Source: Burkholderia catarinensis
GTDB taxonomy: Bacteria > Pseudomonadota > Gammaproteobacteria > Burkholderiales > Burkholderiaceae
Direction: 5' to 3'
NCBI RefSeq assembly: GCF_001883705.2
Contig: NZ_MDEQ02000004.1
Span: 248,001-312,000, forward strand
Length of the DNA stretch: 64,000 nt
The first letter of the stretch is position 1, and each line of letters starts with the position of its first letter. The position numbers and the translations under genes were made by a program. A model generated the notes under the pieces. It was not told where the DNA came from. It ran no database searches and saw only the letters and a program-made list of their open reading frames with translations. This document shows, one piece after another, positions 26,489-38,695 of this stretch.

Positions 26489-26917
26489 TCAGAACGACGC
26501 GCAGGCCGGCACGAGCGTCATGCCGACCGATTGCTGCCGGAATCGCTCCGCGTACGCTTGCCGGATTGCGGCGAGCCGTGTGCGCGTATCGGGCGTATCG
26601 CCGGCGATGATACGGATCACGAAGCTGTCTTCGCGTGTGATCCCGCCGCTTGCGCGGTCGCGCCACTGGCCGTGCGTGTCCCAGTAGGTGAGACCGTCGG
26701 GGAAACGCGGCGTGACGGTGTCGGCGAGGAACGCCGCGCGTTCCGCATCGGTGACGGGGCCGCGCCCGGCGATGTCGCGCCCGAACAGCAGATCGGCCTG
26801 CAGCATGCGGTTCTCGCCCGGCCGCGTGCAGGCCGGCGGCGCGTTGACCATGGGCGAGGGCGGGGTTGCGCAACCGGCGAGCAGCGCGATCGCGATGGCG
26901 CCGATCAGCGGCCGCAT
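26489..26917 (-). CDS. DUF3574-like lipoprotein
   Basis: A 142-residue predicted outer- or inner-membrane lipoprotein. The lipobox is LLAGC with the acylated cysteine at residue 16. The mature part contains LLFGRDIAGRGPVTDAERAAFLADTVTPRFPDGLTYWDTHGQWRD and IRIIAGDTPDTRTRLAAIRQAYAERF, which is the DUF3574 pattern (an uncharacterised enzyme-like fold). The ATG at 26917 places the lipobox correctly, whereas the open frame extends upstream 33 codons. Monocistronic; it converges on the PBP1A gene. Confidence 0.75.
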   Translation of the reverse strand: MRPLIGAIAIALLAGCATPPSPMVNAPPACTRPGENRMLQADLLFGRDIAGRGPVTDAERAAFLADTVTPRFPDGLTYWDTHGQWRDRASGGITREDSFVIRIIAGDTPDTRTRLAAIRQAYAERFRQQSVGMTLVPACASF

Positions 26918-26994
26918 CTGCCCATTTCGCGTCGATCGACCCCCGCGCGGGCAAAACGCTGCGCGCTCAACCACTTGCGTGCGTGTGCGGCGGG

Positions 26995-27029
26995 TTATCA
27001 ACAGGGCTGTCAACATAATCTGGGGATAA
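26995..27029. promoter_or_regulatory. Two DnaA-box-like sites in inverted orientation
   Basis: TTATCAACA at 26995-27003 and TGGGGATAA at 27021-27029 (reverse complement TTATCCCCA) each differ from the TTATNCACA box at one position. They sit immediately before the inverted-repeat element. This may be chance at this GC content, so confidence is low. Confidence 0.25.
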
Positions 27030-27035
27030 CCCTAG

Positions 27036-27315
27036 GGTCTGTTTACATATGGAACGCGCATGCGTTGCCACGAGAACGGCCGCTCGCGAGGCGCGTGACG
27101 CCGCGAATACTGACGTATTCGCAAGGAGCGCAACGCGGCGAGCGGCCGTTCTCGTGGCAACCCCAAATTAAAAAATCAAGTCACGGGAATGCCCGAAATC
27201 GCCCGTATGGCGGCGTCGCTCGTCGCTTGTTTGGCACGGCCAAACGGCGCTCCTCACTTCTTGCCCTCCGAGCGATTTCGGGCATTCGCATGTGCGTTCC
27301 ATATGTAAACAGACC
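27036..27315. repeat. 280-bp inverted-repeat element with nested hairpins (MITE-like)
   Basis: Terminal inverted repeats of 29 bp with one mismatch (start GGTCTGTTTACATATGGAAC, end at 27287-27315) bound a 280-bp element. It is flanked on each side by CTAG (27032-27035 and 27316-27319). Inside are two long perfect stems: 23 bp at 27064-27086 with 27139-27161, and 16 bp at 27187-27202 with 27272-27287. Each encloses a smaller hairpin, at 27103-27122 and 27229-27245. The element has no coding capacity. This looks like a non-autonomous transposon using a CTAG target, as IS5-family elements do. The parent element is not identified. Confidence 0.8.
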
Positions 27316-27346
27316 CTAGGTTTGTTCGCCGGTGCCCGGTGCGGGG

Positions 27347-28366
27347 TCAGTGCTGCAGTTTCGCGTGCGCGAGATGCATGCCGAGCGTGCCGGGGTCGGT
27401 ATTCGTGCCCGACAGCAGCACGCCGACGCGCTTGCCCTGCAGCGTTTCGCGCAGCGGGCCGAGCAGCGCGGCGAGCGCGGCCGCGCACGCCGGTTCGACC
27501 GACAGTTTCAGGTGCGAGAACAGGAACAGCATCGCCGCGCGCAGCGCGGCGTCGGACACGGTGACGATGCGATCGACGTGGCGCCGGCACAGCTGGTAGC
27601 TGTATTCCTCGGTATGCGGCGCCATCAGCGAATCGGCGATCGTCTGCATCGCGCTCATCTTGATCGTGTGATTCGCCGCGAAGCTGCGGCTCATCGCGTC
27701 GGCGCCTTCCGGCTCGACGCCATACACGTGCACGCGCGGATTCGCGAGCCGCAGCGCGGTCGCCATGCCCGCCGCGAGCCCGCCGCCGCCGATCGGCACG
27801 ATCACCGCGTCGAGGTCGGGTGTCTGCGTCGCCCATTCGTAGCCGAGCGTCGCGGTGCCGAGTATCGTGTGATAGCCGTTGAACGGATGGATGAAGAAGC
27901 GGCCTTCCTCGGCTTCGATCCGCCGTACGAGATCGAACGCCTGCGATGCGCTGCCCGCGAGCACGACTTCCGCGCGGTACTGCTTGCACTGCGCGATGCG
28001 CGTCGGGCTCGCGGTATGGAACATCACGACCTTCGCGCTGCTGCCGAGCCGCATCGCCGCATACGCGACGGCCGCCGCGTGATTGCCGGCCGACACGCAG
28101 GTGACGCCGGCATTCTTGCGCGCCTGGTCGAGCGCGAGCAGGTGCGTGAATGCGCCGCGCGCCTTGAAGCTGCCGCTCGCCTGCAGCAGCTCGAACTTGA
28201 AGTTGACGTGCGTGCCCTCGAGGGACGGCAGGTCGGCGCGTTCGAACACGGGCGTGCGCGCGACCCAGGGTGACAACGCGAAATGCTGCGCGGCAATTTC
28301 GTCGAGCGTCGGAATCGGCTCGCCGTCGATCGTCGTATGGGCAGTGCCCTGTTGTTCAGTCGGCAT
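27347..28366 (-). CDS. PLP-dependent serine/threonine dehydratase family protein
   Basis: A 339-residue fold-type II PLP enzyme. The lysine that forms the Schiff base is in SGSFKARGAFTHL, the phosphate-binding loop is VPIGGGGLAAGM, and the N-terminal active-site residues follow (SAGNHAAAVAYAAMRLG). It lacks the C-terminal ACT regulatory domain of biosynthetic IlvA, so it is a catabolic or other branch (TdcB-like, 3-hydroxyaspartate dehydratase, or EutB-like). Substrate is not readable. It is encoded 60 bp downstream of argE on the same strand. The ATG at 28366 is chosen over 28402 by similarity. Confidence 0.85.
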   Translation of the reverse strand: MPTEQQGTAHTTIDGEPIPTLDEIAAQHFALSPWVARTPVFERADLPSLEGTHVNFKFELLQASGSFKARGAFTHLLALDQARKNAGVTCVSAGNHAAAVAYAAMRLGSSAKVVMFHTASPTRIAQCKQYRAEVVLAGSASQAFDLVRRIEAEEGRFFIHPFNGYHTILGTATLGYEWATQTPDLDAVIVPIGGGGLAAGMATALRLANPRVHVYGVEPEGADAMSRSFAANHTIKMSAMQTIADSLMAPHTEEYSYQLCRRHVDRIVTVSDAALRAAMLFLFSHLKLSVEPACAAALAALLGPLRETLQGKRVGVLLSGTNTDPGTLGMHLAHAKLQH

Positions 28367-28426
28367 GACGTGGCGGGTGGCGGAGTGGGCCGGCCCGCAC
28401 ACGCGGGCCGGCGTGGCGGGAGGCAG

Positions 28427-38275: not shown

Positions 38276-38416
38276 AAGCCGAAATTCGGTAGATACTCCC
38301 CTGCACTCCATCTTTCATCTTTGCACACCCGAATTCCGCAGGGTTTTTCAAGTACCAGAGGTAGCCGGTTGCCGCGTGACGAAGGGAACAAATCGACCAA
38401 AGAAGCGAGGACGGTC

Positions 38417-38695
38417 ATGCGATCTGCACGGATTGCACTGATGCTGACGATCGCGCTTGCCGGTCCATATGCGTCGAACTTCGCGTATGCGCAGCGCTCC
38501 GAGCAGGGCGCACCGTCGCGCAAGCTGCCGCGCGGCAAAGCGCCGCAGTCCGATCATGCCGCCGAGACGACGGTCCGTTCCGCCGTGCCCCCCGATCTCG
38601 AACAGCGCCGCCGCGACGGGCACATGACGCTCGAGGAGCGGCACCTGTTGCGCCAGCACATCGAAGACGCCGTTCGCGAGCTGTACAAGCGCTGA
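38417..38695 (+). CDS. Small exported protein, unknown function
   Basis: A 92-residue protein with a clear signal peptide (MRSARIALMLTIALAGPYASNFAYA, cleavage about residue 25). The mature part is basic (SRKLPRGKAPQSDH) and ends in a charged helix (PPDLEQRRRDGHMTLEERHLLRQHIEDAVRELYKR). This end resembles the small periplasmic RND/UPF-type proteins with a C-terminal LxxHIxxAxxxLY signature often encoded next to DUF1800 genes. There is no transmembrane anchor beyond the signal. It is 129 bp before the DUF1800 gene. Function is not known. Confidence 0.65.
   Translation: MRSARIALMLTIALAGPYASNFAYAQRSEQGAPSRKLPRGKAPQSDHAAETTVRSAVPPDLEQRRRDGHMTLEERHLLRQHIEDAVRELYKR

Follow-up and report, generated by a model that had tools for sequence, protein, structure and literature searches.

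A branched palindromic repeat of Burkholderiaceae with IS5-family ends and mirrored changes in its stems

Background

The RUP elements of pneumococcus are short repeats that use a TA target and have inverted ends similar to the ends of a complete insertion sequence, IS630-Spn1 (passages of PMC2229807), and in these traits they are like the Burkholderia repeat described here, which differs from them in its IS5-family partner, its length of 282 bp, its two inner hairpins and its mirrored evolution. ERIC sequences are also intergenic repeats, and their orientation is reported to be crucial for their effect on messengers (in passages of the same source), but their hosts and size differ, the fold of the Burkholderia element is branched and its effect on messengers is putative. 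A further likeness is to inverted repeats altered by template switching in yeast genes and in RNA genes, for which arm homogenisation, spacer inversion and instantaneous two-sided changes are described (in parts of PMC8604942 and PMC8794818); in the yeast cases, as presented in the relevant part of PMC8604942, the spacers are of a few bases, whereas here the inverted interior is about 220 bp, contains two hairpins and belongs to a mobile family.

Two-sided changes in a stem are usually taken as proof of a functional RNA. The present family has many copies at known orthologous sites, where mirrored changes and inversions can be traced, and RNA selection and templating at the DNA level can be separated with real data from it.

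Results and discussion

The element and its fold

The window (the whole 64,000-nucleotide stretch of Burkholderia catarinensis DNA analysed, from contig NZ_MDEQ02000004.1) holds one such element, and comparison with other copies set its limits at 27035-27316 (282 bp) with TA on both flanks. The initial annotation had described a palindromic element bounded by CTAG on each side; the CTAG borders are there, while the limits then given (27036..27315) were too narrow by one base per side. The inverted arms are also present as described, the one mismatch in the outer arm being a G.T pair (27058/27293), and so are the two inner stems, of which the second has the 16 bp reported (27187-27202/27272-27287) and the first has 24 bp and not 23; the observation as a whole was confirmed. 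Three helices make up the fold, P1 formed by both ends, P2 (24 bp) and P3 (16 bp), with small hairpins tipping P2 and P3. The parts of the element and its neighbours are listed below with the evidence for each.

26489..27016, minus strand: neighbouring 175-aa ORF, its start facing the left end of the element; no NCBIfam match
27033..27034, no strand: left TA, one half of the target duplication (target CCTAGG); empty orthologous loci, and TA duplication at two other sites
27035..27063, plus strand: P1, left terminal inverted repeat; it starts with the 14 bases GGGTCTGTTTACAT, which are also found at one end of an IS5-family insertion sequence
27064..27087, plus strand: P2 stem 5' arm, 24 bp, perfect; fold and copy comparison
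27088..27137, plus strand: P2 tip, which encloses hairpin 27103-27122 and has kept much of its sequence between subfamilies
27138..27161, plus strand: P2 stem 3' arm; fold and copy comparison
27162..27186, plus strand: A-rich unpaired linker, the fastest-changing part of the element
27187..27202, plus strand: P3 stem 5' arm, 16 bp; fold and copy comparison
27203..27271, plus strand: P3 tip with inner hairpin 27229-27245; site of 27-bp inserts in one or both arms in some copies
27272..27287, plus strand: P3 stem 3' arm; fold and copy comparison
27288..27316, plus strand: P1, right terminal inverted repeat; copy comparison
27317..27318, no strand: right TA, the other half of the target duplication; loci without the element, and TA duplication elsewhere
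27347..28402, minus strand: neighbouring threonine/serine dehydratase-like ORF, its stop facing the right end of the element; the NCBIfam matches shown are below curated cut-offs

Folding predictions, which the initial annotation had proposed as a check, gave a structure far more stable than chance both as RNA (z-score -16.1 for 27036-27315) and as DNA (z-score -15.0 for 27035-27316), with none of 200 shuffles equally stable in either case. The end motif GGGNCTGTTYAC occurs twice in the window (0.04 expected), at the two ends of the element. Mechanical ORFs cross the element and nothing examined marks them as genes. A known RNA family was dropped as a candidate because Rfam has no match over 27035-27316 at gathering score, and so was a phage origin, the phage collection having no match to the element. 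A promoter or intrinsic terminator role was also dropped, with no promoter-like sites in the element and two terminator-like sites compared to 0.8 expected.

By eye, the P3 tip (27203-27271) resembles the reverse complement of the P2 tip (27088-27137), and the two hairpins look like products of an inverted duplication; short complementary stretches in them (GACGCCGC with GCGGCGTC and AGGAGCGC with GCGCTCCT) might allow P2 and P3 to pair tip to tip.

Copies, subfamilies and spread

Ten near-full copies with 87-100% identity lie in the element's own genome, and matches were found in 60 of 65 genomes of the genus, its own included (E <= 0.001, weak and partial matches counted), a search of related genomes that bears out the earlier suggestion of a mobile family. 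In a sample of the wider family, Burkholderiaceae, 43 of 200 genomes, from 9 of 25 genera, have a match, 23 of the 43 being of the element's own genus. A sister subfamily (type 2) has largely different P1, P2 and P3 sequences on the same plan, and elements from other genera follow this plan too. With the type 2 query, 59 of the 65 genomes have a match and the own genome has six at full length; since genome matches were not sorted by subfamily, the genome counts of the two overlap, and type 1 and type 2 queries match each other's copies at about 75%.

From among the matches listed, 117 distinct full copies were studied, leaving out eight partial matches and two copies at contig ends; the end motif yielded no element in 5 of 48 loci. 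The 117 copies represent 75 sites, 17 of them common to at least two genomes. In the plasmid collection eight records match the element and an end-only query matches six, all among those eight; two of the collection's records (H1 and H2) have no gene annotation at the element's place. No description of the element was found in the titles and abstract openings listed, a coverage outside which most subscription papers fall, and the searches made gave the repeat no name.

Insertion sites and target

When 30 orthologous loci from other genomes were aligned to the window flanks, the element was absent from all 30, and 21 of these empty loci have an uninterrupted CCTAGG where the window has CCTA-element-TAGG, so that the comparison of orthologous spacers proposed earlier reveals a clean insertion. 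At a CTAG target a duplication of 2 bp is indistinguishable from one of 4 bp, and the matter was settled by two other sites, where an empty CTAA becomes CTA-element-TAA and the duplication is therefore of TA (the empty loci behind this number one and three, one of the three being CTAC). TA is duplicated at two of the three element sites tested, the third (L058), with CTGG in most relatives and no clean TA, being uninformative. The commonest flanks among the 117 copies are CTA..TAG (34) and TTA..TAA (20); YTA..TAR flanks occur in 65 copies and other flanks in 52, with TA on both sides in 76.

A probable partner among IS5-family insertion sequences

A transposase gene with the same ends, which the initial annotation had recommended looking for, was found in L199 (the same place as L228), one of 30 IS5-type (DUF4096) loci examined from the matches listed. 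It is an 826-bp IS5-family insertion sequence lying between CTA and TAG, its two ends reading CTA followed by GGGTCTGTTCACATTC and CTA followed by GGGTCTGTTTACATTC, and is equal to the element in 14 of 14 terminal bases at the right end and 13 of 14 at the left. The likeness is known from these ends and the CTA/TAG flanks; unlike the element, L199 carries transposase reading frames, which match DUF4096 and DDE_Tnp_1 and are assigned by NCBIfam to the IS5 family. Its group would correspond to the IS427 group. Another locus, L200, has one identical and one similar end, and three insertion sequence copies with both ends readable sit between CTA and TAG. DNA matches to L199, short ones included, occur in 24 of the 65 genomes; the own genome has one, a truncated piece with one end (L239, C1:639679-640005), and nine DUF4096 matches, one of which (L212) was looked at.

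The element has the traits of a MITE, with many copies, a length (282 bp) too short for a transposase gene and ends shared with a transposase-bearing element; together with the empty sites and the TA duplication these make the MITE-like insertion favoured by the initial annotation a well supported idea, and the comparison of sequences points to a MITE of an IS5-family group with ends TA followed by GGGTCTGTTTACAT. The L199-type group would then be the putative source of its transposase in trans. The suggestion that the cloverleaf might reflect a peculiar mobilisation was not upheld, as the element's ends and its target are those expected of an ordinary transposase of the IS5 family.

TA duplication and CTAG targets also occur in IS630/Tc1-mariner elements, and the TA target would suit a MITE of that type, a reading that we consider highly improbable given that IS630-type (PF13358) matches at E <= 0.001 are lacking in 46 of the 65 genomes, that the element's ends were found in none of 30 such loci except L174, which holds an element copy alongside, and that the same 14-bp end belongs to an IS5-family element. 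An IS630-type partner was the candidate examined first, and was dropped when the 30 IS630-type loci proved to be without these ends. In L174 a copy of the palindrome, at about 1088-1372, appears to adjoin an IS630-type element directly, with a CTAG common to both at the right border, as in a nested insertion. The REPIN/REP systems with RAYT are recognised by a REP tetranucleotide together with a genomic RAYT transposase gene; membership in these is unlikely because the element has IS5-family ends.

Two-sided changes in the stems

Stem covariation across copies, a point raised by the initial annotation, is very strong. In the 117 copies the outermost 28 pairs give 3276 cells, of which 3159 are Watson-Crick, with at most four Watson-Crick types per position, and by helix the paired cells are 3564 of 3744 (P1 with three flanking pairs), 2780 of 2808 (P2) and 2079 of 2106 (P3). 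For 32 diverged representatives 97.4% of cells pair compared to 85.7% in shuffles (none of 500 shuffles being as high), and 48 of 99 pairs show two-sided changes; slid-structure controls gave 32-41% paired, a comparison in which the tested structure is favoured, having been derived from the same alignment. These 32 are from 38 representatives, without L081, L095, L118, L119, L132 and L295, and L306 is poorly aligned in P3.

At the 17 shared sites, with changes counted relative to each pair's commonest state, there are 29 two-sided Watson-Crick states and 31 one-sided mismatches (6 G-T, 5 A-C and 20 other). Another 10 changes are one-sided and give a Watson-Crick pair, and 2 are two-sided mismatches. 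Without the shifted-arm copies L124 and L126 the two-sided states are 28 against 14 one-sided mismatches (4 G-T, 4 A-C and 6 other), and all 10 one-sided changes to a Watson-Crick pair are at 27058/27293. Arm changes arise in place, on both sides, within single orthologous sites, as at site 7 (L103 and L107), where two-sided arm changes differ between genomes. Mean divergence within these 17 sites is 0.076 for flanks, 0.055 for outer P1, 0.019 for P2 stems, 0.031 for P3 stems and 0.137 for the linker. The P2 and P3 stems are slower than the flanks, and therefore something besides mirroring holds the stems and tips; their slowness, and the keeping of the tips between subfamilies, is unexplained by purely neutral mirroring.

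Inserts of 27 bp in the P3 arms are lacking in 101 copies, on the right only in 9, on the left only in 4 and on both sides in 3, and at seven shared sites the genomes differ in insert state. The left-hand and right-hand inserts are approximately reverse complements (by eye, and also in the fold of L121). This pattern fits copying between arms, although exchange between copies could yield the same.

Interior inversions

The interior is inverted between genomes, with the same flanks, at 5 of 23 shared sites (from 106 sites in all, both subfamilies). In 11 flank-aligned comparisons interior identity is 0.86-0.955 when reversed against 0.62-0.66 as it lies, and the 250-bp flanks of inverted pairs have an identity of 0.77-0.98. 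Two of these sites have arms, GGGACTGTTTCCATATGG and GGGTCTGTCTACCGATGG, that are common to both orientations and occur at no other site among the 117 copies; site-specific arms in both orientations argue against separate insertions. L080, another copy at the second of the two (GGGTCTGTCTACCGATGG), carries arms of a common kind, at the L073/L104 site the arms of L104 also occur elsewhere, and the weakest of the five sites rests on L126, the arms of which are damaged. Flips were found at 2 of 14 shared sites between same-strand genes compared to 3 of 8 others, and are thus not clearly rarer there.

Orientation relative to genes

Among 69 sites of type 1 copies, those between same-strand genes favour one orientation by 29 sites to 4, and the remainder have divergent, convergent or unclear flanks; before the merging of inverted sites the numbers were 30 to 5 of 75 (one-sided binomial for 30 of 35, 1.1e-5). 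The window copy, with both neighbours on the minus strand, obeys the rule, as does one annotated Paraburkholderia record. A second set, of type 2 and other-genera loci, gave 9 to 12 of 40 loci, unmerged by site. Strands were called from codons in both flanks, replacing a rough gene caller (33 to 8 of 75); the codon-based caller was trained on 35 window ORFs and its check on the same ORFs (105/105) is circular, and one annotated record agrees with it. As the interior can flip, a type 1 bias of this size suggests selection or biased insertion. It hints at an orientation-dependent effect on a transcript, and so at a function in the cell.

RNA selection, exchange between copies or templating between arms

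The fold might be kept by selection on an RNA, the element being transcribed with its neighbours and acting on messenger stability or termination, with compensatory changes making the stems two-sided, and this we regard as possible though doubtful. It would accommodate the strong covariation, the conservation of the tips while stems change and the 29 to 4 orientation bias of type 1, and pair 27058/27293, with 44-45 G-T against 1 A-C among the 117 copies, by itself fits RNA pairing on the plus strand; this pair looks like an old polymorphism, but could be a true wobble. If pairing is kept in an RNA, most of the one-sided changes that remain would be expected to be G-U on the strand that is transcribed. 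Counted as distinct site-pair-state events, leaving out L124 and L126 (shifted arms) and pair 27058/27293, they are 13 G-T, 11 A-C and 14 other in P1, 4, 6 and 8 in P2 and 5, 5 and 2 in P3; the totals of 22 G-T, 22 A-C and 24 other therefore show no wobble preference on either strand, whereas G-U pairs were the ones affected by 78.5% of the two-step compensatory changes in published RNA genes (in a part of PMC8794818). Of 140 two-sided states in P1, counted with pair 27058/27293, 34 are of transversion type, for which no passage via a wobble is possible. Against RNA selection stand also the interior inversions, the unbiased second set of 40 loci (9 to 12), the lack of an Rfam match at gathering score, and the counts of promoter-like and terminator-like sites given above. 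Ectopic gene conversion among the many copies of a genome, keeping arms and interior alike, appears unlikely as the general cause. It would suit the inner stems being more alike than the outer arms and the insert states differing across genomes at seven shared sites, and could be the cause of part of the insert exchange, but the arm changes of site 7 (L103 and L107) are two-sided and genome-specific at one site, of the 39 distinct left arms (18 bases) 27 are confined to a single site, and the arms at two inverted sites were found nowhere else among the 117 copies, though copies beyond these may be donors.

Template switching between inverted repeats is described as leaving homogenised arms and inverted spacers (in a part of PMC8604942); both marks are present here at orthologous sites, and in nematodes an active maintenance of inverted repeats against sequence change was inferred (PMC1803023). 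It is likely that the stems are kept matched by arm-to-arm exchange at the DNA level, rather than by RNA selection alone, and we infer that the mirroring is the work of template switching or of an equivalent arm exchange. Taking the family, its insertion sites, the shared ends, the single-site mirrored changes and the inversions as observed, we think it probable that a MITE moved in trans, with stems mirrored by arm templating, is the right explanation. The element would be non-autonomous and moved by the transposase of an IS5-family group; insertion sequences of this group would carry GGGTCTGTTYACAT at their ends and would target YTAR-like sites, duplicating TA. After insertion the element could persist for long, and during DNA synthesis its strand would fold so that one arm templates the other; this would mirror substitutions across the stem and occasionally invert the interior, thereby keeping the pairing while the stem sequence drifts. 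The fold thus seems to matter for the in-place evolution of the copies. That such a protein-free element keeps its architecture by using its arms as mutual repair templates, and by flipping, in an orientation held by the host, acts on its neighbours, is rather improbable as we see it; if true, a self-templating element would be a slow heritable switch on neighbouring genes.

Related repeats and small-RNA scans

A 27-bp GC-rich hairpin-forming module with core GGGGACTTCCTTCGGGG, which has no copy in the window, lies in the P3 arms of L017, L121 and others, and a similar form is in the P2 tip of L295; the module could be an independent small repeat. The palindromic repeat should be masked or annotated in scans for small RNAs. 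Elsewhere in the window, at 38304-38523 on the plus strand, Rfam has a match to BTH_s19, a Burkholderia small RNA, at 191.8 bits.
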